Shown here: positions 2,751 to 40,500 of the stretch, in pieces
How positions within the stretch are numbered: the stretch's first letter is position 1
Layout of the letters: each line of letters starts with the position of its first letter
DNA from: Thermoproteota archaeon
GTDB lineage: Archaea > Thermoproteota > Thermoprotei_A > EX4484-217-1 > JAPDJV01
Direction of reading: 5' to 3'
Length of the DNA: 64,000 bases
Assembly (NCBI GenBank): GCA_029258925.1
Contig: JAPDJV010000004.1
Location: 21,277 to 85,276, forward strand
The notes under the pieces: generated by a model
Told to the model about the DNA's origin: nothing
Databases searched by the model: none
Seen by the model: the letters and a program-made list of their open reading frames with translations, nothing else
Position numbers and translations under genes: made by a program

Positions 2751-3242
2751 TTAAATATTTACCTCAAGCATGCCGCTTAGAGCAGCTGACTCAACAATCC
2801 TCTTCATAAGTCTAATAGGCTTTATCACGCCTCTCTCACTTAAAATTCTACTGAGCCTAACCAGGTCGTCGAACTCCGCTTTAACGAACACTACTTCACC
2901 CTTATGGTAAACTCTTTTAACACGCACAGCCTCCTCCACCCCAGCCCTGCTACACTTAACAGTAACGTTGACAAAATCAAATGGTATACTATGATGAGCA
3001 CACTCGATAACCCTGTAACCAGTGATCCCAAGCTCTCTCACCAACACTTCAACAACACCATCAACGTGCTCTTCGTCGACATCTATGAGAACAACATAAC
3101 TTGGCCTATTCTTCTTCGAAATAGAGGGGATAACGTTTATACTGTTCACCTTAAGGGAACTCGATAATTGAATTAAGTGTCCTATCGACTCACCCGTAGT
3201 GCTGTCAACACTTATTACCAGAAACATCAATATCTTCCTCAA
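2751..3242 (-). CDS. Stand-alone LarC C-terminal-domain-like protein (LarC2-like)
   Basis: VISVDSTTGESIGHLIQLSSSLKVNSINVIPSISKKNRPSYVVLIDV...GEVVFVKAEFDDLVRLSRILSERGV aligns by eye with LarC ETNVDDTPGEVIGHAVDKL...SLGKKNRPFHIIQVL...GEIVNVKPEYDDLKKISEETGV. Confidence 0.75.
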   Translation of the reverse strand: MRKILMFLVISVDSTTGESIGHLIQLSSSLKVNSINVIPSISKKNRPSYVVLIDVDEEHVDGVVEVLVRELGITGYRVIECAHHSIPFDFVNVTVKCSRAGVEEAVRVKRVYHKGEVVFVKAEFDDLVRLSRILSERGVIKPIRLMKRIVESAALSGMLEVNI

Positions 3243-5949: not shown

Positions 5950-6843
5950 TTATTTCTTCGCTTCTTTAACCAAGTACTCCACTATTTTGCCTGCAATGTT
6001 CACTCTGGATACTGACTGAATGCCTTTCCAACCAGGCTGACTGTTCACTTCGAGAACACGATACTCTCCTCCATGTTCAACTATGTCTACACCAGCTATT
6101 CTGCAACCTATTATTTCAGCAGACCTCACCGCGAGCTCTCTGAGTTCCCCGGATGGTTTGAAGGGTTCCGGTATTGCCCCCCTAGCAATATTAGTCTTCC
6201 ACTCCCCGCGCTTAACTTGTCTCCTAATCATTGATGCCACTACTTCCCCGTCTATCACAAATAATCTCAGATCTCTGCCCCCATGCTCTATGAATGGCTG
6301 CATATATGCTACTTTATGTATGAACTGTAGTTCTCCAAGTATTCTCCAAGCCTCATCGGGCTTCTCAATGAGCATTGAACCCAGGCCCCTGGATCCGAAC
6401 AGCGGTTTCAAGACCAGTTTGTTTTTCAGCTTGTCCACGTAGTTCATGGCAGCTCTGGGATTCTCTGTCACGAAGGTTTCGGGTACAGGTATGCCGTTCC
6501 TGGCTAGAACATGTAGTGTTCTAAACTTGTTTAATGCTATTTCAATAGAGCTCGGGGGATTGATTATTGGGATCCCATAATCTTCTAGGCCGTGTAGGAA
6601 GTCTAGTCTGAACATTGCTTCGTCGAGACTGCACTTCCCCAATGGTCTAACAAATCCAATGCCTAGCTCCTCAACTAAGTTAATTGTCTTATAGATGAAT
6701 ACCGTTTTCCCGCCGACTATGTGGGCACTAAGCCTCTTATAGCTTATTGGAACACATTTATGCCCCTTGTTCTCAGCCGCCCTACGTATACTATTAGTGG
6801 CCCATCCATTAATGTTCCTAGTGAAGACGCCTATTACTACCAT
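5950..6843 (-). CDS. RimK-family ATP-grasp ligase; likely H4MPT:glutamate ligase (MptN) or CofF-like
   Basis: ATP-grasp pattern LVLKPLFGSRGLGSMLIEK...RDLRLFVIDGEVVASMIRR...VLEVNSQPGWKGIQ, located immediately downstream of H4MPT genes. Confidence 0.75.
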   Translation of the reverse strand: MVVIGVFTRNINGWATNSIRRAAENKGHKCVPISYKRLSAHIVGGKTVFIYKTINLVEELGIGFVRPLGKCSLDEAMFRLDFLHGLEDYGIPIINPPSSIEIALNKFRTLHVLARNGIPVPETFVTENPRAAMNYVDKLKNKLVLKPLFGSRGLGSMLIEKPDEAWRILGELQFIHKVAYMQPFIEHGGRDLRLFVIDGEVVASMIRRQVKRGEWKTNIARGAIPEPFKPSGELRELAVRSAEIIGCRIAGVDIVEHGGEYRVLEVNSQPGWKGIQSVSRVNIAGKIVEYLVKEAKK

Positions 6844-6872
6844 TACCCCACCTACTCTAAATAAAAAATATT

Positions 6873-7832
6873 TTAATTTTCTTTTAATCCTATGCTTTCA
6901 AGGAATATTTTCGGATTCAGCTCTCCCGCCTGAATTGTTGCACCTGTTTCAACGTGTACGACTGCTATTTTAGCTGGAGCAAACAGCCCCGGATCGATTT
7001 TATAGAAGTCTCCGCCAGCTTCCTCGAATATTTTAGAGAATGGCTTACCGTAGGAGGGAGAATTCAGTGAAGGTGTTTTCTCAACTATTTTCTTAAGCTT
7101 ATAGAAATTCTCGTATGATATGTAGTAGTATGCTTCACCCATGTAGAGCTGTGCATCATTTGTTCTACCCATGGCCTCGACGAATCTGGGGTGTCCCGGG
7201 GCAACTGGTGCTCTCCCTATGCCGGATACGAAGGAGTTTAATGGGAGGCCTAGAGTGTGCATTTTATGTATGCCTGTCTCAACTATTCTAGCACTTATTT
7301 GAACGCTTCCAGAAATACTCCGAGTCGGAGTTACTATCATGTATAGTCCTTCAGGGGAGACGCCCGTGCTATTGCAAAGGTATTCAACCACTTCCTCACT
7401 GGGTAATTCAAGAGATTCTAAAACTATCACTGTCTCGCTGCTCTCATCAGCATAGTTTAGTTCGTCGAACAAATGCTTCGGTTTCTGGGAGAGTGCTCTA
7501 GCTGGACCGCTTCCCATAGCAAAATATTTCCCAACTCTTATAGACCAGCCAGCGTACTGGCTTGCCATGCAGGCTATTGGAGGATTGTCTGTTGAAACAG
7601 TTACGTATGGTATGATCTTACCCTCTAAATCGCCCAGTGTAACAGATACTTTGCCAAGTCCTCCCATGCAGACTTCGGCTACAAGTCTTCCCGCCTCTAA
7701 TCCGCCTCTAGCTCTCACTCCAGCATCTATGACTGTCGCACCCCTAATCTTCAACACATCTACTCGGAGCCTCCTAGCGTTGTCTAAGATTTTAGATATG
7801 ATCTCCATTGCAAGCCTGTTAACACTTACCAT
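6873..7832 (-). CDS. mch: Methenyl-tetrahydromethanopterin cyclohydrolase
   Basis: Mch-like VDAGVRARGGLEAGRLVAEVCMGGLGKV, SQYAGWSIRVGKYFAMGSGPARAL, IGRAPVAPGHPRFVEAMGRTNDAQLY. Confidence 0.9.
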   Translation of the reverse strand: MVSVNRLAMEIISKILDNARRLRVDVLKIRGATVIDAGVRARGGLEAGRLVAEVCMGGLGKVSVTLGDLEGKIIPYVTVSTDNPPIACMASQYAGWSIRVGKYFAMGSGPARALSQKPKHLFDELNYADESSETVIVLESLELPSEEVVEYLCNSTGVSPEGLYMIVTPTRSISGSVQISARIVETGIHKMHTLGLPLNSFVSGIGRAPVAPGHPRFVEAMGRTNDAQLYMGEAYYYISYENFYKLKKIVEKTPSLNSPSYGKPFSKIFEEAGGDFYKIDPGLFAPAKIAVVHVETGATIQAGELNPKIFLESIGLKEN

Positions 7833-8683
7833 GCTTCTACACCACCTACTTCAAGTAATTCTGCCAATTCTTCAAGATACTTGTTTAAGTCTAGGTTTAA
7901 GTACAGTCTCCCCCTACCACCAACAACGCTGTCTCCTATCAACAACAATATTCTACCGGTTACAGCCCATTTCCCCACTTTCCCCTTACTTAAAACGCTG
8001 TCAGGGTGGAAGCTTGGAAGAATTCTTGGAACAACTCCCCCAATAACTATTTTACCTTTAACCATTCTTGCACCTGGCAATCCATTGCAGCCCCCTCTAA
8101 TAAATATTGATCCACCGATCATAGAGTATCCTGGCATTATCCCGGAGGATCCCTCGACAATTATTCTGCCCCCACTCATGCCCTCCCCTATGTAGGATCC
8201 AGCACTTCCATGTACTATGATCTCTCCTCCACTCATACCCTTACCGGGCTTCTCGCCTGGAAGCTTTGACCCTAAATGGTCGCCTGCATTCCCGAAAACC
8301 TCTATAATGCCGTCTTTCATCTTTGACCCAAGCCAGGAGTCCGCGTTTCCCCTAACAATCATCATCCCGCCTTTCATCTTGTATCCTAGGAAGCAACCTG
8401 CTTCTCCCTCAATAATTATTCTACCCTCACTCATCTTGTAGCCAACATACCTGATCTTATTACTGCTATCGATAATGAGTTCGACAGTGTCCTCGGGTTC
8501 AGGGCTACAGGAGACCTCGAATATTTCTCCTAACCTCAGCCTTGAATTCCCTTCCCAGACAGGTAGTTCGAGTATCTCCTTAATGCTCTTTCCCTTGATA
8601 TTATCTGGGCTCATACTTCTCGCGTCAACTGGTACGTGGAATTCCTTCTTGGGTTGAATAAAGTATCTTGGCATGTACCGCAC
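7826..8683 (-). CDS. fwdC: Formylmethanofuran dehydrogenase subunit C
   Basis: Repeated beta-helix units (GxxMKGGMMIVRGNADSWLGSKMKDGIIEVFGNAGDHLGSK) as in FwdC/GltS C-terminal domains; next to fwdA. Confidence 0.9.
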   Translation of the reverse strand: MRYMPRYFIQPKKEFHVPVDARSMSPDNIKGKSIKEILELPVWEGNSRLRLGEIFEVSCSPEPEDTVELIIDSSNKIRYVGYKMSEGRIIIEGEAGCFLGYKMKGGMMIVRGNADSWLGSKMKDGIIEVFGNAGDHLGSKLPGEKPGKGMSGGEIIVHGSAGSYIGEGMSGGRIIVEGSSGIMPGYSMIGGSIFIRGGCNGLPGARMVKGKIVIGGVVPRILPSFHPDSVLSKGKVGKWAVTGRILLLIGDSVVGGRGRLYLNLDLNKYLEELAELLEVGGVEAW

Positions 8684-8686
8684 CTT

Positions 8687-10399
8687 TCATAAGAGTGTTT
8701 TCACGGGAATCTCCCTAGGCTTCCTGATCTCGCTGAGATCTACGATGAAGTTTGAGTACTGAATTGAATAGTAGTATGGAAACATTTCCCTCACTTTATC
8801 AACAATAGTTTTAGACAGGTCTTCCGGGATCTCCGGTTTAACGTAGAGTGTCGAACCATAAGTTTCCTCTACTACTCTCCCCCCTCTAACAACTATTCTC
8901 CCGTCTTTGAAGACGTATTCTGCTCTCGATAAGGCTTTTTCAACGATCTTCCAGTCTCTCGAGGGATCCACTTTCCCCGGGTCGATATTGTATATTGCTA
9001 TGTCTGCTTGAGCCCCTATCCCCAGATGCCCCTTGAAGTCTTCTAATCCCAAAAGCTTTGCTGGTGCAGCCCTTGTTGCTATAATTATGTCGTTGAAATC
9101 GAATTCCTCGTCTACTGCTGGTAGAGCAGTTTTCTTAAGAGCCCTCCTATTAACCTTCTTCATCTCCTCTTCTCTAGCACGCCTACTCATAAGCCACGCT
9201 ATGACTCTAGGATACTTAGTGAATGGCCCTGCGTTCGGATGGTCTGTTGTAATAAATGTTCTCCAAGGATCTTTCGTCAACAATGCTACTTCTAAACCTA
9301 TAGTCCACTGAACAGTGTTAACATAGTTCCTTCTCCTATACCTGTAGGGGACTATTCCGGAAGCAGTTTCTGCTTCAACGTCTGCGAAAGCCCACTTCCA
9401 CCTAGATATGTGGAATAATACGTGTTCGAAGGGGGCATCTGCCGTCATTGTTGTGACCGAACCGAATATTATTTGACCCAGATCCACGCTGGCATTCCTC
9501 TGCCTCCTCAAAATCCTAGCTATTTCCTCTCCCCCGCTTCCAAGAGTTGCCCAAGTACTCCCCTTGTACCCCGTGAACTGGACGTGAGTTATGTGCATGG
9601 ATATCTTGTTTCCCGTAGAGTACTTGGAGGATAATTCTAGTGTTCTAGTTGTTGTCGAATAGTTGCCGGGATAGCCCAGTCTATTGCAGTGGACATGTAT
9701 TGGGTGTGGCAGGTTTAGCAGGGTGCTTGCCTCCCCGAGCATCAATATTATTTCTCTAGGCGTCAAATTGTATTCTGGAAGCTGTGTATCCAAGTCTATA
9801 CCATACCCTTTCCCATATAGCCATGCTAGATCTGCTCCCGGGTCAACTATTTTAACTCCGTAACCCTTGGTTGCGTGGAGAAGCCAGGCAATGTAGCCTG
9901 CAAGCCCCTTCAAGTCTCCCTCTGAAATATAGTCTAGTGCGATCCAGTTCGAGTCCATTAATATTAGAGTCATCTTATCGATTATTGGAATAGAATCCAA
10001 CTCCTCATGAGTATGCCTCGTTTTAAGCGGTGGACTAGCTGCCTCAACCACTGTCGTGTAGCCTAGGCGAGCATAACCGTAGCCTATTTTATACACGTTT
10101 GGAACAGTTCTCCCCGTCTGAGACCTTAGACCCATTTTCCCGGGGATGTTAGTGAGGTAGTGGTCTTCTACCATCATAACTCTGCCAGTGTTGACTTTGG
10201 GTCCAGCAATATGCGAGTGTACATCTATTCCTCCAGGAACGACCATCATTCCCCTTGCATCTACTACAATAGTCTCCCTGGGGTCTAGGGATGATGGGTC
10301 AACTATTACCCCGTTCCTTAACCCTATATCAATTACCTCTCCCTCGACACCGTTTAGGGGATCGTAGACTATTCCCCCTTTTATCAGGAAACTCTTCAA
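8687..10399 (-). CDS. fwdA: Formylmethanofuran dehydrogenase subunit A (amidohydrolase fold)
   Basis: GGIDVHSHIAGPKVNTGRVM, HPIHVHCNRLGYPGNY, HITHVQFTGYKGS, FITTDHPNAGPFTKYPRVIAWLMSRRAR. Confidence 0.92.
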   Translation of the reverse strand: MKSFLIKGGIVYDPLNGVEGEVIDIGLRNGVIVDPSSLDPRETIVVDARGMMVVPGGIDVHSHIAGPKVNTGRVMMVEDHYLTNIPGKMGLRSQTGRTVPNVYKIGYGYARLGYTTVVEAASPPLKTRHTHEELDSIPIIDKMTLILMDSNWIALDYISEGDLKGLAGYIAWLLHATKGYGVKIVDPGADLAWLYGKGYGIDLDTQLPEYNLTPREIILMLGEASTLLNLPHPIHVHCNRLGYPGNYSTTTRTLELSSKYSTGNKISMHITHVQFTGYKGSTWATLGSGGEEIARILRRQRNASVDLGQIIFGSVTTMTADAPFEHVLFHISRWKWAFADVEAETASGIVPYRYRRRNYVNTVQWTIGLEVALLTKDPWRTFITTDHPNAGPFTKYPRVIAWLMSRRAREEEMKKVNRRALKKTALPAVDEEFDFNDIIIATRAAPAKLLGLEDFKGHLGIGAQADIAIYNIDPGKVDPSRDWKIVEKALSRAEYVFKDGRIVVRGGRVVEETYGSTLYVKPEIPEDLSKTIVDKVREMFPYYYSIQYSNFIVDLSEIRKPREIPVKTLL

Positions 10400-10400
10400 A

Positions 10401-12185
10401 TTACTCCCCCCTAAGCCTCCTGACTCTGCTGAGTATTTCCAGTAGTATTCGGTGGTCTTCCATTACGCCTGTCGGCGGCTCGATGATTTTCTTAACTCTG
10501 AGGGGAACCCCGTCCATTCTATACGCTGTTCCCCCAGCTTCTACGCCGCTCATAGCTGAGGGTATGACAACATCTGCTATCATAGCTGTTAGACTCCACT
10601 TGGGGTCGACGACTATTAATGGGATTTTCGAGAGGTTTTCAACTGCTTTCCGGGGGAAGTGGGCTACTGGATCGCTTGCAATTATCAATGCTGCATCAAC
10701 ATCTCCCCTGATCAACGCGTCCGTTGCTGTTGTGAGGCCCGGTATGAATTTCGGTATCCCCCTCATGAAGTCCACGCTAAACGGGTATCCTGTTAACCAG
10801 GTTGAAACTTGACATGCCCCTGTAACATTGTAGTGTCCCCTCATAGGTACGACTGTGAACCTCGTCCAATCGTTTAAGTCGTGGGCAAGCTTGATTAACT
10901 CCTCTAGGCTCCTGTACCTGGGCTCGTTCATCGTGAGACCCATGCCGAAGAACCCTACGCCGTACTTGCAACTTCTAAGAGCATCGGCTAGCTCGTATAT
11001 TTTCTCCCTTGGAACCCCTGCTACGGTGGATTGCTCTATATCTAGGTCTTTGACGGCCATTCTCAGAGCAGTTATGAGCTCGTAGTCTTTGCCGGGCTCA
11101 ACCATTATGAATTCGTCTGCCATCCTAGCTGTAGCAGTTCTCCTAACATCTATGACTATAACTCTTCTATCCTTCCTCCCCTTAACATGCTTCCCGCCCT
11201 CGATAACCCATCTCTTAAAGTGGTTTGGGTGGGCCTCGGCTGGATTACATCCCCAGAACAATATTAGGTCTGCTAGATGCCTCACTAATCCTAGGGTGCA
11301 TCTCGCTGCACCGGCTTCCATAACGCCTATTGTCGTTGGGCCATGGCAGACAACAGTAGTGTTATCTATTATTGCACCAAGGTATTCGGCCAACTCCACT
11401 CCAACAATTATTGCCTCGTTGACTGTTGAACTTAAACCGAATATTAATGGATGTTTTGATGAAGCAAGTATTTCAGCTGCCTTATCCAGTGCCTTGGGAA
11501 GCGTGCATTCTTCTAGGAGGCCGCTGGGACTCCTAATGTATGGTTTAACTATTCTATCCCTATGGTAATTTCTTATCTTGGATGAGCCCAGCGGGCATGC
11601 TCCCACAACTTTTTCAACAATGTTACCGTTGAGGTGTACTTTGATGAAGTCGCACAGGTCTCCGCAGAAGGGGCAGACGAAGTCTTCTATAATCTTCTTC
11701 TCGCCCTCCCTTAAATCTAGTTCAACAGGGTGTGCATCAACTCTCCTACCAGTTATTATACTGACTAGCTCCTCCACGCTGGGGACTTGTTCCTCTGTTG
11801 GCCTTACTTTAGCTGGGATATTCTTGTACTTCGGCATTCCCGTTCCATCTGTTAGTGGGCAGACCACGGCGTTTGCCCATGGACCCATTGGGATAAAACC
11901 TGTGCCTCTAGGTAGACCTGGATCAATTGAAACGTTGACTACTATAGCACCATGTTCTGTTTCAACTCTCACCCTACTATTCTTCTCGACACCTATTAAC
12001 TGGGCGTCTTCAGGGTTTAAGCTGAGTGTTGAAGCTGAAAGCCTGTACCTCCTACTCCTCTTTCCCTCAGCTTCCATGCTCATTCCTTGAACTAGACTCC
12101 TCCCCGTCACCAGCAATATTTCTAGCTGGCGCCTCTCCCCAAGCTTCTCTTCAAGCGCCTCCTGCACGATGCTCGTTGAAGTCAA
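10401..12185 (-). CDS. fwdDB: Formylmethanofuran dehydrogenase FwdD-FwdB fusion (N-terminal D-type molybdopterin-dinucleotide-binding domain, C-terminal B catalytic domain)
   Basis: The N-terminal ~150 aa (LLVTGRSLVQGMSMEAEGK...LNPEDAQLIGVEKNSRVRVETEHG...GTGFIPMGPWANAVV) match FwdD. The rest (CPFCGDLCDFIKV...TVVCHGPTTIGVMEAGAAR...WGCNPAEAHPNHFKRW) matches FwdB. Confidence 0.9.
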   Translation of the reverse strand: MTSTSIVQEALEEKLGERRQLEILLVTGRSLVQGMSMEAEGKRSRRYRLSASTLSLNPEDAQLIGVEKNSRVRVETEHGAIVVNVSIDPGLPRGTGFIPMGPWANAVVCPLTDGTGMPKYKNIPAKVRPTEEQVPSVEELVSIITGRRVDAHPVELDLREGEKKIIEDFVCPFCGDLCDFIKVHLNGNIVEKVVGACPLGSSKIRNYHRDRIVKPYIRSPSGLLEECTLPKALDKAAEILASSKHPLIFGLSSTVNEAIIVGVELAEYLGAIIDNTTVVCHGPTTIGVMEAGAARCTLGLVRHLADLILFWGCNPAEAHPNHFKRWVIEGGKHVKGRKDRRVIVIDVRRTATARMADEFIMVEPGKDYELITALRMAVKDLDIEQSTVAGVPREKIYELADALRSCKYGVGFFGMGLTMNEPRYRSLEELIKLAHDLNDWTRFTVVPMRGHYNVTGACQVSTWLTGYPFSVDFMRGIPKFIPGLTTATDALIRGDVDAALIIASDPVAHFPRKAVENLSKIPLIVVDPKWSLTAMIADVVIPSAMSGVEAGGTAYRMDGVPLRVKKIIEPPTGVMEDHRILLEILSRVRRLRGE

Positions 12186-12187
12186 TA

Positions 12188-13036
12188 TTATGGTCGCCTC
12201 GGCTTCTCCAAGAGCTTTTCCTTAACGAGTATTGTCCCGTCGGAGTGGTGCGGTTTTCTCTCCAACGTGTCACCGTATTTCTCTATCTCTCTTGCTTCAT
12301 CAGCTAGTCTAGCCGCTACTCTCATGGCTTCGTGTGCTGCTGCAACGATTAAAGTGTACTTCTCCCTCTCCTTTACCTTGAAGCATCCCTCCGTTGTTAA
12401 ATCGGCTACTCTTCTTGCAATCTCGTATGCTGCCATTGCTTTAGCTCTAGCATACGGGTTTCTGAATCCCGCTCTCTCAACAACCCACTTGTCCACAACG
12501 ATCTTCGGTAAGACAGGTTTCTCCCCCTTCTTAAGTGCTTCAACAACCTTATCTATTTCCTCATATAGTAGTCTGAATACCCCCGTTATAGATAACACTT
12601 TTATGATGTCGCTGTTGTACAGTGCCATTTCAACTGGGTCGAGAAACTCTCTTCTAGCACCTATCATTGAGTCGCCTAACACTATTATGTAACCGAACCC
12701 CCTTTCCTCCAAGTCCCCCACTATCTTCTTCGTAGGCGCGTCTGAGATCACTATTACAGGTTTGCCTGCTGCAAGCAATATTTCCCTCGCTCTCGTTGGC
12801 CCGGGTAGTGTTGCATTAGGGCTTACGACAATGTATAAGTCGTGGTCTCCTCCCAGAGCCCTGTTTGCAACTTCTTCTCCATAGGTTTCGGAGAACATTT
12901 TCGCGCCTGTTGAATAAACTCTCACTTCAATATCTTTTCTATCGGCTCTCTCATCTAAGAGATATTCTATTAGGACTGCTGATCCTATTGCACCCATTTT
13001 AACTACTCCAATACTTATGGGTTTTACTTCACCCAA
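12188..13036 (-). CDS. mtd: F420-dependent methylene-H4MPT dehydrogenase
   Basis: IGVVKMGAIGSAVLIEYLLDERADRKDIEVRVYSTGAKM...VVSPNATLPGPTRAREIL...GDSMIGARREFLDPVEMALYN resembles Mtd. Confidence 0.9.
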   Translation of the reverse strand: MGEVKPISIGVVKMGAIGSAVLIEYLLDERADRKDIEVRVYSTGAKMFSETYGEEVANRALGGDHDLYIVVSPNATLPGPTRAREILLAAGKPVIVISDAPTKKIVGDLEERGFGYIIVLGDSMIGARREFLDPVEMALYNSDIIKVLSITGVFRLLYEEIDKVVEALKKGEKPVLPKIVVDKWVVERAGFRNPYARAKAMAAYEIARRVADLTTEGCFKVKEREKYTLIVAAAHEAMRVAARLADEAREIEKYGDTLERKPHHSDGTILVKEKLLEKPRRP

Positions 13037-13086
13037 CCATTTCCACCTCCAAACACCATTACCATAATTACGTGAAGCACGGGAAA

Positions 13087-14013
13087 TTACGGGTTGAATC
13101 CTTTTTCAAGAGCAAGCTTGATTGCATCCTTCAAGTAGATCTTATATGGGCCGAGGCTTCCCCCATAATTGCCTGCATCTATCTTCACTATTCCAGGCAC
13201 CTTGGAGGCTTCTATAGCTGCAACACCCATCGCTAAAGCGACGCTCTTAAGATTTAAACCATTTATTACAATCTCGTATACGCAGTTCACGTTCTCCGGG
13301 ATCTTAGTCTCCTCGACAATATCTCTTATTGTTGGACAATAATAATGGTTTGTTGTTGCACGGAGCTTGGGGTACTTTATGCTTCCAACCTTAGAGCCCG
13401 ATCTAACTATGCCTCCCGGGAAAGGTGTTATTACATGCCTACAGTTTTCACGTATTGCTTTTACTGCTCTCTCAGCTGCTTCAAGCCCCGAATCCAAGCT
13501 TTCAGCGAGAATTAGTATATTTCCTCCGGCAACACCCTTAACAACCCCGAACACATCCTCTATTATGAACTCTCCCTCCATTACCGGTATTCTCCAAATA
13601 GTCCTACCATTAAGAACATCCTTTTTCTCGAATCCATCTCCAAATTTAGCTAAAGCTCTCCCAACATGTATTTTCCTCTTAACCCTTGGAAGACCATCCC
13701 ATGCTGCAGTTGTTGGACAAGTGAGTATTGTTTGCCCAACTCTAAGAGTCACCTGGCCTTTGAGCTCGGGAACACCTAGATGATAGATTTGTATGAGTGC
13801 TCCAATCCTCCCATCCGGAGTCTTCTCCCCCGGCACAATTCTTTCAATCCCTGCCTCAGCTGGACTCATTATAATAGAAGTTGCAAAACCTGTTGCAACG
13901 CTTGCAGCCGTCAGAGCCCACTTTTCATTTCTGGCTGTAACAAGTATTCTGGTTGCATACATGGGGAATGCCTCGGCAAAAGTATCCTCAATAATCACGT
14001 TATTAATTTTCAA
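13087..14013 (-). CDS. ftr: Formylmethanofuran:H4MPT formyltransferase
   Basis: Ftr-like IIEDTFAEAFPMYATRILVTA...GFATSIIMSPAEAGIE...TCPTTAAWDG...GYGGSLGPYKIYLKD-type C terminus. Confidence 0.9.
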   Translation of the reverse strand: MKINNVIIEDTFAEAFPMYATRILVTARNEKWALTAASVATGFATSIIMSPAEAGIERIVPGEKTPDGRIGALIQIYHLGVPELKGQVTLRVGQTILTCPTTAAWDGLPRVKRKIHVGRALAKFGDGFEKKDVLNGRTIWRIPVMEGEFIIEDVFGVVKGVAGGNILILAESLDSGLEAAERAVKAIRENCRHVITPFPGGIVRSGSKVGSIKYPKLRATTNHYYCPTIRDIVEETKIPENVNCVYEIVINGLNLKSVALAMGVAAIEASKVPGIVKIDAGNYGGSLGPYKIYLKDAIKLALEKGFNP

Positions 14014-14340: not shown

Positions 14341-15873
14341 GTGAGTTTTATGGTAAGTCCCGAAGTTTTAAAGAAAATGGTTAATGATCTTCTAGCTGTT
14401 CAAAAAGCTGACATAGCTGTTATAAAAGAGAAGAGAGGCGGGGTATTCAAGGTTGCAGACGCTAAGCCGTACGTGGACGCAGTTAAGAAGATGGAAGCAT
14501 TGGAGGGCATGAAGAAGGAGGTCATCGACTTACATGTTAAAAGCGTTGAGCTACACTTCGAAATATTAAACGACATATGTGTTGACAACACTATTAGGCC
14601 CGAGGACGACCCATTTGTAGAGCACTACCAGACACCTGCAATCCTGGAAATACTATACGACCTAGACCCGGCGCTCAGGGAGAGCGTTGAGAAATTCGTC
14701 AACTCCTTCGACGTGAAGGACATTAAGGCAATAATAGGGAAGGAGGCTATTAGGAGGTATACTGGTTTCTACGGTCCAACATGTGTGGTAGACTTCGCTG
14801 TTTCAGCTGGGAGCACTTCAGGACTATTCGGCTTCATACTGGACAGACTAGACATACCGAAGAAGTATAAGGAGACTATCCTAGCAGCCAAGAGCTGGGG
14901 TATGAACACAAGCTATGGTTTCGGTACAGCATTCACCGAGGCTATGGAGGCAGGCAAGACTGTTGAGGAGGCACTTGCAACCGAAATAGAGTGGTTGAAG
15001 AAGATATGGTTGACACCAGTTGACGCTCAAGTAGAGTTGATGAAGAAGCTCGGACACAAGAGCTTCGATCCAGCAGTCTACGAGAAGAGGTATAAGGAGG
15101 GCATTAAGCCCTATGTTAAGGCGGCATTAGACGCTGGAGTGAGTGAAGCAAACATTGTGGTTGTTCCAGCATACTGTGTTGGAGACGTTGGGCACCACAT
15201 TGCCCAGAGCATGTACAACATGGCTAAAGACGACGTAGTAATGGCAATACTTGAAGCAGTAACATGTACCCTCGAGAAGAACATAACTAAAGCATTAGAG
15301 GAGGGCAAATTAAAGAACGAATACGCTGTTCTAAGCTTCGCAGGAGGAACAACTGCTGCAGCAACAACATTCATACTAGGCTTAGACGGATTCACAGTGC
15401 CAATGGTAGTCGACTTGTTAACTAAGAGATTCTTCAACTACGTGCAGAAGTATCCTGGAAGAGGACAGGCAGCAGAACTACACAACGTCGACTTCATGGA
15501 CATGCTTGTTAGAGGAGAGAAAATAATCGCACCGCCACCAATAGGCAAGGGCGGTATACTCAAGGGTGTCAAACTAGACTTCTCACCAATACTAGAAAAC
15601 GAGGTAATCATGAACCCGCAGAGGTATACCTATCCTGGATGCGCTATCACAGTGAGGTTCTCAGCTCTGATGAGGCTAGCTGACTTCCCATGCCTACTGA
15701 CAAGCGAGCCCGTAACTGCCACTGTGAACACCTATATCGTAGCACTGCACCCAGATGTACCAGTATCACCACCACTCATATGCAAGGACTGTGCTGTAGC
15801 CAGATTGATGAGTGGAAGAAGATTCCACTGCTACTATAGGGTGGGAGTGGCAAAAGAGAAACCACTCTACTAA
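14341..15873 (+). CDS. DUF2193-like archaeal protein (510 aa)
   Basis: Long ORF preceded by a ~330-bp AT-rich intergenic region. Overall pattern recalls DUF2193 proteins of methanogens. Cys/His-rich C terminus (LICKDCAVARLMSGRRFHCYYRVG). Confidence 0.65.
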   Translation: MSFMVSPEVLKKMVNDLLAVQKADIAVIKEKRGGVFKVADAKPYVDAVKKMEALEGMKKEVIDLHVKSVELHFEILNDICVDNTIRPEDDPFVEHYQTPAILEILYDLDPALRESVEKFVNSFDVKDIKAIIGKEAIRRYTGFYGPTCVVDFAVSAGSTSGLFGFILDRLDIPKKYKETILAAKSWGMNTSYGFGTAFTEAMEAGKTVEEALATEIEWLKKIWLTPVDAQVELMKKLGHKSFDPAVYEKRYKEGIKPYVKAALDAGVSEANIVVVPAYCVGDVGHHIAQSMYNMAKDDVVMAILEAVTCTLEKNITKALEEGKLKNEYAVLSFAGGTTAAATTFILGLDGFTVPMVVDLLTKRFFNYVQKYPGRGQAAELHNVDFMDMLVRGEKIIAPPPIGKGGILKGVKLDFSPILENEVIMNPQRYTYPGCAITVRFSALMRLADFPCLLTSEPVTATVNTYIVALHPDVPVSPPLICKDCAVARLMSGRRFHCYYRVGVAKEKPLY

Positions 15874-20571: not shown

Positions 20572-21249
20572 TTAAGTAGTCTCATTATTATTGATTTTTC
20601 CCAGAATCCTCATTAAAACAAGCCTAGTTCTGGGATTACAGCCTATTCTGAGAGCTTCCTCCAAGTCCTCGGGGTAATCCAAGTCTACTCTAACAGTATT
20701 CTTAGAGTAAACTCTTACAGCTATGCCTCTCTCAATAGCTTTAGCAAGATTTACCCAGAAACTTCCAACACCGAAAACAGGCTTAATCACGTTTGGCGGC
20801 TTCAAAAGTATTATGTTTGTTCCCCAATCTCTTGCTGGCGATAGAACAATGGCTTTAACATATTTTTCCGCTAGCGAAACTATTTCCTGGAAGTCTTTCG
20901 AGGATGCACAAGGTATGTCTGCTACAGTTATAATAATGCTTTCAGCACTAGGATATGTTTTCTCAATATAATCTATTGCCTTCCTAATAGCCTCAACTCT
21001 CCCGACGCCCTCGTCGAGCAACACATCACACTTACTCCACTTAGAATAGTACTCTCCGATCCTTGTGGAAGGAGTCACAATTATTACTCTATCGACGATT
21101 TTCGAAAGTTCTTCAACGACGTCCTCGAACATTGCTCTAACTAACTCGGCCCTCTCCCTTAATCCGACCCTCCTAGCCAGCCTCTTCTTAGATTTCTCGA
21201 AGTCCTTGACAGTAACTATACCTATTAATCCAGTATTCAAAGGTCTCAC
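20572..21249 (-). CDS. cofC: 2-phospho-L-lactate guanylyltransferase (F420 biosynthesis)
   Basis: CofC-like VTVKDFEKSKKRLAR...L...RAMFEDVVEEL...VTPS...DEGVGRVEAIRKAIDYI...VADIPCAS...VFGVGSF...VRVDLDYPEDLEEAL. Confidence 0.82.
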   Translation of the reverse strand: MRPLNTGLIGIVTVKDFEKSKKRLARRVGLRERAELVRAMFEDVVEELSKIVDRVIIVTPSTRIGEYYSKWSKCDVLLDEGVGRVEAIRKAIDYIEKTYPSAESIIITVADIPCASSKDFQEIVSLAEKYVKAIVLSPARDWGTNIILLKPPNVIKPVFGVGSFWVNLAKAIERGIAVRVYSKNTVRVDLDYPEDLEEALRIGCNPRTRLVLMRILGKINNNETT

Positions 21250-21353
21250 TCCTATGAGGAAATCAGTTAGTTGGCGCTTAAGTATTATTGGGTCATTTTG
21301 ACTCTTATAGTATATTAAAAGTTAGCTTATTGTTACAGGTGCGCGATTTGTAT

Positions 21354-22601
21354 ATGATCCAGGGCTGGGAGAAGAAGGTTATTAGAGGGGATATTCAGAA
21401 GTTTAATGTGCCGTCGGGATGGCCGTTTGAACCAGGAGACTACAAGGTTGGAAACCCTTATCATCCAGCTGCTGTCGTGGTACCGTTGGGTTCGCCCAGA
21501 CTGGAGTCTAAGGCTCTTGAATACGGTTGTGCCATAGTTGGAAGATGTAGGACAGCTAACATAGGTATAGAGAAGCTTGTGTGCAATGTTGTGTCAAACC
21601 CTAATATAAGGTGGCTCGTGGTAGTAGGCCCGGAATCCGAGGGGCACCTCAGCGGGCAGGCAATAATCTCTCTTATTGAGAGAGGTGTTCACCCGGATAC
21701 GAAGAAGATAATTGGAGCGAAGGGTCCTTCCGCTAGAATACCTAACATACCGATTGAAATTGTCGAGAGGTTTAGGAGGCAGGTTAGAGTAGTGGACATG
21801 CTGGGTGTTCTAGACGAAGATCTCTTGAAGGCTGTTTTAAGGGGGGTTGTTCAGGAGCCCTGGAATAAGGTTGAAGTAAAGGTTAAGGGTAAAAAGTATG
21901 TCCTGTACGATCCGGGAGCATACTTAGATGAGCCTCCAATAATAGTCTCACTGGAGAAACTTTTCTCAGTTAAGGGTGTGAGAGTAGAGTCGACGTCATA
22001 TACTCAGACAACTATAATTGCCAGAAGCATAGGGGAAGCATACCCGTACATAGTTTGGCTATTGGATCACGGCTCATTTGTTGAATACGTTGACGAAAGG
22101 GGCTCCAGGGTAAGAGAACTTCTCAACATACTAATACATGTGAGGAAGCCTCTGGCCGAACCAATGGTTCCCAGAGAATACAATATCTTGTCAAGAAGCG
22201 AGCTGGAAGAATACGCTAAAACGTATCTGAATCCAAGTAGGAGGGGCTTCGAGTACACTTATGGTGAGAGAATAGTGGCGTATCCTACTAGAGTAAACCA
22301 GCTAGAATACGTTGTCAAAAAGCTCTCAAACAACTACAATACTAGGAGAGCAGTTATTGTGACCTGGTATCCTCCTAAAGACACCGTGGTAGATGAAGTA
22401 CCGTGTTTAACCACAATAATGTTCAATTGCAGGAATGGAGTACTACACGAAACAGCTGTTTTAAGGAGCAACGACATGATCAGAGCTTGGCCTGCAAACG
22501 CGTACGCCCTAGCGAAGCTCCTGAAATACGTGTCCCTAAAAATAGGTGTTGAACCGGGAACCCTCACCACTCTAAGTATAAGTGGCCACAAGTATCTCTA
22601 A
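21354..22601 (+). CDS. Fusion protein: MtrA-like (tetrahydromethanopterin S-methyltransferase subunit A) domain plus C-terminal thymidylate-synthase-like domain
   Basis: N-term: SGWPFEPGDYKVGNPYHPAAVVVPLGS...IVGRCRTANIGIEKLVCNVVSNPNIRWLVVVGPESEGHLSGQAIISLIERGV...KIIGAKGPSARIPNIPIEIVERFRRQVRVVDM (MtrA). C-term: HVRKPLAEPMVP...FEYTYGERI...RRAVIVTWYPPKD...VPCLTTIMFNCRNGVLHETAVLRSNDMIRAWPANAYALAKLL...SGHKY (ThyA-like). The track ORF begins at 21288, but ATG 21354 is the better start. Confidence 0.85.
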   Translation: MIQGWEKKVIRGDIQKFNVPSGWPFEPGDYKVGNPYHPAAVVVPLGSPRLESKALEYGCAIVGRCRTANIGIEKLVCNVVSNPNIRWLVVVGPESEGHLSGQAIISLIERGVHPDTKKIIGAKGPSARIPNIPIEIVERFRRQVRVVDMLGVLDEDLLKAVLRGVVQEPWNKVEVKVKGKKYVLYDPGAYLDEPPIIVSLEKLFSVKGVRVESTSYTQTTIIARSIGEAYPYIVWLLDHGSFVEYVDERGSRVRELLNILIHVRKPLAEPMVPREYNILSRSELEEYAKTYLNPSRRGFEYTYGERIVAYPTRVNQLEYVVKKLSNNYNTRRAVIVTWYPPKDTVVDEVPCLTTIMFNCRNGVLHETAVLRSNDMIRAWPANAYALAKLLKYVSLKIGVEPGTLTTLSISGHKYL

Positions 22602-39030: not shown

Positions 39031-40500
39031 CTACTTACATAATACTTCTTCTGGGGGAATCCCCCTCTGCTTTAACCATTTCGGCATGAGCTTCTTCTCT
39101 ACTTCCTCGTCTACTTCAGGTGCTTTCTCCACCAGGTATTCTGCTAGCGATTTACTCATGTTTATTGCGCCGTAGACTCCGTCGAATACTATCACTTTAT
39201 CAGTCTTCCCTATCTTATATGCGAACTCCATAGCTGTTTCGAGGTCCTCTGCTATTACAGCGTGCTTCATGAACTCTATGTTCTGTGGGTCACGGTTGTA
39301 CACGTCTGCCTGCTCCTTTGTTACAACTATTACTGGAAACATCTTCGACCAGAACACGCTTGGATATCCTCCCCAAGCATAGTTTATTACTATAACCTTT
39401 ATTGCAGGGTTCACTGGTGGAACCTCTGGGATCAAAGGTCTGTCTTTTTCATCGTAGTATGCTTCAGTATACCATGTGTATGGTGGTAGGGGGTTGTCTA
39501 AGTCGAATAAGTCTATGTTTAGGCCCGTGAAGTTAGCGAATATTACTCCACCCGAAAACGTGTATGGTATTGGCGTTCTATAGTCTAAGACGACTATGCA
39601 TTCGTCTATTTTACTCAGCAGCCTCATGACTTTTCCATAGTATCTCAGGTTATCTACTATTATCCTACGATCCAGTCTATCGAGATCGTTATCGGCGTAA
39701 ACTCCTAGTATACCTACTGGTGAAGCTCTTAGGAATACTGAGAAAGCCCACTTGTCCTGAACGAACTTCGAGTTGAATATTGCTCTTGCAACGAAGTTTG
39801 CTCCCCTTGGTCCAAGATTATGGTGGTACGCTGATCTTGTTTCAAGTCTAGCGTACGACATGCCGAATGGTTTAAATGCTCTATCCACATGTCTATGGAA
39901 ATGTACTTCTCTCACATCAGTGTTATGTGCATGCACTATTTTATCCGCATCATAAGCTGCTCTGAGACCATAGAATGTTCCGATCTCGGTCTCTATGGGT
40001 ACTCCCGGATCCAAGGGTGAAATTCCATACGCTTTCCCATTGAAGTATTCGTCCAACTTGAACCTCTTAATATATTCCTCGGACTCTCTATGTCTTAACC
40101 CTACGCCGACCTTCAACCTTATGTTTGTAACTCCAGTTTTACGTTCGATGACGTCCTTTATCGTCTTGAGCATTTCAGCGTATGGTTCTCCTCCAAGAAT
40201 GGTGAAGCCGTGGTGTGATCCGAGTATGTTCACTGAGCGTGCTCCTTTAATTGGAGACATATCGACGTTTTCCAAGGCCTCCTCGGTAGCGTCTCTAATA
40301 GCTTTTGGATTAGGTGGAGGCCATAATGGTTTAGGTATGTCTGGGAAGAGTTCAGATATCTTAATGGAAACCATGTTAGGTAGCTCGGATGCACGTTTCT
40401 TGACGTATTTTGGGTCCACCCCATATATTGAGGGAGCTGGTGGTAATGGAGCTATGGGGGGGCCTATTACTCTACTTTTATCGATTTTATATTGAGGCAT
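39031..40500 (-). CDS. Uncharacterised 489-aa protein, possibly distantly LarA-like (DUF2088); His-rich putative metal site
   Basis: VGVGLRHRESEEYIKRF and ADKIVHAHNTDVREVHFHRHVDRAFKPFGMSYARLETRSAYHHN resemble LarA regions only loosely. 16-nt gap to the ferredoxin gene upstream. Confidence 0.5.
   Translation of the reverse strand: MPQYKIDKSRVIGPPIAPLPPAPSIYGVDPKYVKKRASELPNMVSIKISELFPDIPKPLWPPPNPKAIRDATEEALENVDMSPIKGARSVNILGSHHGFTILGGEPYAEMLKTIKDVIERKTGVTNIRLKVGVGLRHRESEEYIKRFKLDEYFNGKAYGISPLDPGVPIETEIGTFYGLRAAYDADKIVHAHNTDVREVHFHRHVDRAFKPFGMSYARLETRSAYHHNLGPRGANFVARAIFNSKFVQDKWAFSVFLRASPVGILGVYADNDLDRLDRRIIVDNLRYYGKVMRLLSKIDECIVVLDYRTPIPYTFSGGVIFANFTGLNIDLFDLDNPLPPYTWYTEAYYDEKDRPLIPEVPPVNPAIKVIVINYAWGGYPSVFWSKMFPVIVVTKEQADVYNRDPQNIEFMKHAVIAEDLETAMEFAYKIGKTDKVIVFDGVYGAINMSKSLAEYLVEKAPEVDEEVEKKLMPKWLKQRGIPPEEVLCK

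Follow-up and report, generated by a model that had tools for sequence, protein, structure and literature searches.

A single open reading frame (ORF) in the 64,000-nucleotide stretch of DNA analysed here (the window) joins an MtrA corrinoid domain to an archaeal thymidylate synthase (TS) domain. Gene content strongly supports the view that the cell depends on this fusion alone for de novo dTMP synthesis. The reading that we lean towards, although it falls short of an even chance, is that of a dedicated dTMP synthase whose one-carbon unit would be delivered by the fused corrinoid. If this is true, then B12, and not a folate-like cofactor, gives the methyl group for dTMP in an uncultured thermoproteal archaeon.

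The ORF (21354..22601, + strand) encodes 415 amino acids and is uninterrupted from its ATG at 21354 to the stop, with an in-frame TTG upstream at 21288. The original prediction of an MtrA-like and a TS-like domain in one ORF is borne out by Pfam, NCBIfam and fold comparison, and the profile check proposed for the two halves puts both above cut-off. Pfam assigns residues 18-167 (21405..21854, +) to MtrA (PF04208; 147.5 bits, cut-off 25, E 4e-43) and residues 299-414 to Thymidylat_synt (49.4 bits, cut-off 24.3). It reports only these two domains, and the Thy1 domain of ThyX (PF02511) is absent. In NCBIfam, residues 221-414 (22014..22595, +) match the archaeal H4MPT-type model TIGR03283 (thy_syn_methano) with 193.8 bits against a cut-off of 174.55. 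Both domains are also recovered by a PDB sequence search. Between them lies a linker (21855..21953, +) with the motif QEP...YDPGAY, a motif that standalone MtrA proteins, in alignments, likewise have C-terminal of their MtrA domain. The C-terminal membrane anchor is missing, as had been claimed, and it is the TS that comes after the MtrA domain. In an AlphaFold2 model (mean pLDDT 82.8), the MtrA half superposes on the crystal structure of MtrA with cobalamin (5laa) over about 150 residues (Foldseek, rmsd 0.9-1.0 Å), and the TS half separately matches the ThyA fold. The model backs each fold by itself, while their mutual placement is unsure (pTM 0.51).

An assembly artefact was considered and rejected. 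The same fusion recurs in independent metagenome-assembled genomes (MAGs) at 30-46% identity, which rules out an indel-made fusion in this assembly. The motifs quoted in the original prediction are all present (GHLSGQ with His98, PCL with Cys351, RSND and SGHKY), and none of the three contrary results named beforehand occurred, namely a single domain, an indel-made fusion or loss of the catalytic Cys/His in all homologues.

The case for a role in dTMP synthesis comes from the host genome (1.75 Mb, 98.4% complete), which holds a single match to the fusion protein. Searches of this genome found no second ThyA, no ThyX, no thymidine kinase and no canonical MtrA, and the idea that one of the first three lay hidden in it was therefore rejected. 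The suggested survey of thyA/thyX loss covered 50 related genomes that are at least 90% complete. ThyX is present in 46 of them. The four that lack it (G000, G143, G179 and G215) all carry a ThyA-family gene, as does only one ThyX-bearing genome of the 50 (Fisher p 2e-5, uncorrected for relatedness). Furthermore, the three genomes of the same order all have ThyX and lack any match to the fusion, a pattern suggestive of replacement of ThyX by the fusion in this lineage. The earlier proposal of a dTMP-forming or C1-transfer enzyme is thus strongly supported as far as dTMP formation goes, and its donor would be either methyl-corrinoid or methylene-H4MPT.

The dUMP site of the TS half is intact. 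When aligned with E. coli ThyA (a reference sequence checked against PDB entries), Arg331-Arg332 (22344..22349, +) correspond to the phosphate-binding Arg126-Arg127 and Cys351 (22404..22406, +) to the catalytic nucleophile Cys146. The predicted catalytic Cys is therefore retained, and it is found in 7/7 fused homologues. In the RSND...N segment (22464..22499, +), Arg371, Ser372, Asp374 and Asn382 match dUMP-site residues 166, 167, 169 and 177, and His412-x-Tyr414 (22587..22595, +) match His207/Tyr209, after which the chain ends one residue later. In other words, the equivalents of R126, R127, C146, R166, S167, D169, N177, H207 and Y209 are all kept.

The presumed pterin side of the domain is different. 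A PRxH motif, located at E. coli K48-H51, occurs in 13/13 standalone archaeal TSs of the alignment and in 0/7 fusions. The ThyA residues aligned with it presumably lie on the folate side. Similarly, 1-19 residues follow HxY in the fusions (one in the present protein) versus at least 20 in standalone TSs. A broken longer C-terminus was rejected, since the frames downstream of the stop hold no TS-like remnant. PRxH and the C-terminal segment are features of most standalone TSs sampled here and do not belong to a published definition of the family. Three standalone TSs of one family (f36; L084-L086) lack PRxH as well, and two others have an altered form, which means that its absence does not by itself prove a change of donor. 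Nevertheless, the loss of both features favours corrinoid delivery. A change of cofactor has a precedent within the ThyA fold, since one of the top fold matches is annotated as a riboflavin-dependent monooxygenase with dCMP and FAD.

The main and close rival is an ordinary methylene-H4MPT-dependent TS, in which the MtrA domain would act as a scaffold, as a regulator or as a module for pterin or docking, and a corrinoid, if present, would be incidental. We rate this as a serious contender, a step behind corrinoid delivery. Methylene-H4MPT has been proposed as the source of both the C1 unit and the hydride for methanogen TSs. The TIGR03283 score above the equivalog cut-off speaks for this rival and against corrinoid delivery, and genes of methylene-H4MPT metabolism (Mtd, Mch, Ftr and Fwd) lie within the same window. 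They form a block (5950..14013, - strand) with an MptN/RimK-like ligase, Mch, FwdC/A/B-like proteins, Mtd and Ftr. As predicted, this block ends about 7.3 kb from the fusion, which adjoins a divergent cofC for F420 synthesis (20572..21249, -; PF01983, E 3e-28). With enzymes of the Fwd, Ftr, Mch and Mtd types and CofC all encoded in the window, methylene-H4MPT should be available. Beside the H4MPT genes there is also a DUF2193 protein (14341-15873, +; E 1e-217). Against an ordinary TS stand the missing PRxH motif and C-terminal segment, and the retention across the clade of His98 and most corrinoid contacts.

These contacts lie in the MtrA half, where the corrinoid pocket is mostly intact. Asp29-Tyr30 (21438..21443, +) correspond to Asp17-Tyr18 of the nucleotide-tail pocket of MtrA, Thr67-Ala68-Asn69 (21552..21560, +) to Thr53-Glu54-Asn55, and His98 (21645..21647, +) to the cobalt ligand His84 (contacts from PMC4915002). 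Equivalents of all seven cobalamin contacts checked (Asp17, Tyr18, Thr53, Asn55, Gly57, Asn64 and His84) are kept, and the cobalt His is present in 9/10 members of a supported MtrA-domain clade. Most likely, to judge from these alignments, the N-terminal domain carries a cobamide with His98 as its lower cobalt ligand. However, Glu54, which in MtrA hydrogen-bonds the cobalt-ligating His84 (PMC4915002), is replaced by Ala, and the pocket conservation is modest, with 4.5% of random column sets equally conserved. The predicted retention of the cobalt His thus holds. The wider claim of a cobamide link gains from the conserved pocket and from the loss of presumed pterin-side TS features, and loses from the absence of Glu54.

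In the proposed mechanism, the TS domain would bind dUMP and Cys351 would activate C5 in a ThyA-like manner. The C5 enolate of the Cys-dUMP adduct would then attack methyl-Co(III) of the fused corrinoid to give dTMP, and pterin would not serve as reductant in this step. The corrinoid would presumably be recharged from methyl-H4MPT. We infer corrinoid occupancy, the methyl-Co donor and this recharge route from the features described above. In its full form, the proposal is a third kind of TS, with a ThyA-type domain methylating dUMP from the methyl-corrinoid of a fused MtrA in a pterin-free active site and no dihydropterin formed. This fuller version is held slightly more tentatively than corrinoid delivery as such. 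Several observations go against corrinoid delivery. Glu54 is lost, one fusion has no cobalt His (see below), domain orientation is unsure and pocket conservation is modest. In addition, no charger was found, since searches of the host genome for MtrH and for a Pterin_bind methyltransferase that could charge the corrinoid were negative (the MtrH search was positive in the controls M. jannaschii and M. acetivorans). CobS was not found in the host genome either, so a complete cobamide may need salvage. Perhaps the corrinoid is instead a reductant or redox centre, with the carbon coming from methylene-H4MPT. The kept cobalt ligand would fit, and a non-pterin reductant would be expected to avoid dihydromethanopterin. 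However, we know of no precedent for an MtrA-type domain in such a role, and this seems very improbable.

Across 301 genomes of the phylum and a scan of GTDB representatives, the fusion turned up in several independent MAGs. The same domain order is found, for example, in Thermoprotei archaeon B15_G16 (L036, 46% identity, and a second paralogue, L069), in a Thermoproteales MAG (L002/L038), in AUK163 (L013), in B12_G16 (L020) and in uncultured archaeon LFW-46 (L045). On one B15_G16 contig, L036 and L037 lie in identical 17.2-kb stretches of inverse orientation, possibly an assembly duplication. A second fusion group (L016, L017, L021, L022, L025, L028, L089 and L094) has an MtrA-like N-terminus, a TS and about 100 further residues. 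Its cobalt His is absent in 7/7 members aligned over the MtrA part (L094 left out). A PterinBD-DUF4346 domain (PF14251) was matched in four scanned members, with L016 above cut-off and L017 below, and in Pfam this domain is absent from the C-terminus of the present fusion. The original prediction was right that the two domains are real, while this wider archaeal family, including its His-less PterinBD branch, was invisible from the sequence alone.

The two groups thus appear to be complementary, one having the cobalt His without PterinBD and the other PterinBD without the cobalt His. This is the main argument for corrinoid delivery. It also counters a point in favour of an ordinary TS. His-less fusions exist and are apparently the sole TS of their genomes (e.g., G189 and G111), but they bear the extra PterinBD domain that the present protein lacks. 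The main exception to the complement is L002, which has Tyr at the cobalt His position and is apparently the sole TS of its 87% complete genome.

Phylogeny adds a further consideration. The MtrA domains of most fusions, without L013 and L020, form one supported clade (96/96) with three MtrA-only relatives. The fused TS domains fall outside the main standalone TS clade and are not recovered as a single clade, although their monophyly is not rejected (AU p 0.358). Some relatives (L003, L004 and L041) have retained the MtrA domain and lost the TS core, so the MtrA domain can work without TS, which counts against corrinoid delivery. L003 and L004 belong to ThyX-bearing genomes (G319 and G320), the former of which also has other MtrA-TS copies. 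This persistence would suit a chain that combines two separate activities, methyl carriage by a soluble MtrA (e.g., for methionine synthase) and a pterin-dependent TS, and MtrA is the predicted methyl donor of MesA methionine synthases (PMC7857596). However, the host's core methionine synthase is encoded immediately after CdhD/CdhE, the donor to be expected for it, and the repeated fusion to TS would require another reason. We regard two activities as unlikely.

The same methionine synthase cluster (cdhD-cdhE-core methionine synthase, L103 1201-4670 on contig G000:C36, in the host genome outside the window) offers a precedent, by analogy, for the corrinoid-fed anabolism that we favour. Core methionine synthases have no folate-binding domains and are predicted to receive methyl from MtrA or CoFeSP, and a cdhD-cdhE pair followed by such a gene was read by Price et al. 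as corrinoid-fed methionine synthesis (PMC7857596).

Two other ORFs of the window were without match in Pfam, NCBIfam and PDB sequence searches. One of 608 residues (918-2744, +) sits between LarC-like (nickel insertion) ORFs at 24-776 and 2751-3242, and one of 489 residues (39031-40500, -) sits between ferredoxin-type and QRPTase-like genes.

To our knowledge, thymidylate is made either by ThyA or by ThyX, each drawing its carbon from a methylene-pterin. If true, a corrinoid-fed route would add a third way. It would let an H4MPT-using archaeon avoid dihydromethanopterin formation and would apply to the making of DNA precursors the corrinoid-fed logic that core methionine synthases are proposed to follow. 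Even with a methylene-H4MPT donor, nature offers family members that have the cobalt His and others that lack it, on which the role of the MtrA domain could be tested. Both domains are known. No paper describing the MtrA-TS fusion or DUF4346 was found in a search of the freely accessible literature.

Four known systems invite comparison. The fusion shares with MtrA of the Mtr complex (TIGR01111, PF04208) the fold of 5laa, the cobalt His and the cobalamin contacts. However, it scores 146.5 bits, below the TIGR01111 equivalog cut-off of 249.15, has no membrane anchor and no Glu54, carries a TS and resides in a genome without MtrH. It resembles archaeal H4MPT-type TSs (TIGR03283) in its score above cut-off and in all dUMP-site residues, and differs in lacking PRxH, ending right after HxY and having an N-terminal MtrA domain. 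The MtrA-like-TS-PterinBD proteins of other Thermoproteota (L016, L017 and relatives) have the same order of MtrA-like domain and TS with the reverse outfit, no cobalt His and a PF14251 domain. Finally, the MesA/MesB/MesC core methionine synthases are an analogy only (PMC7857596). They too are anabolic methyltransferases without a pterin-binding domain and with a supposed corrinoid-protein donor, but enzyme and acceptor are unrelated and their donor is a separate protein.
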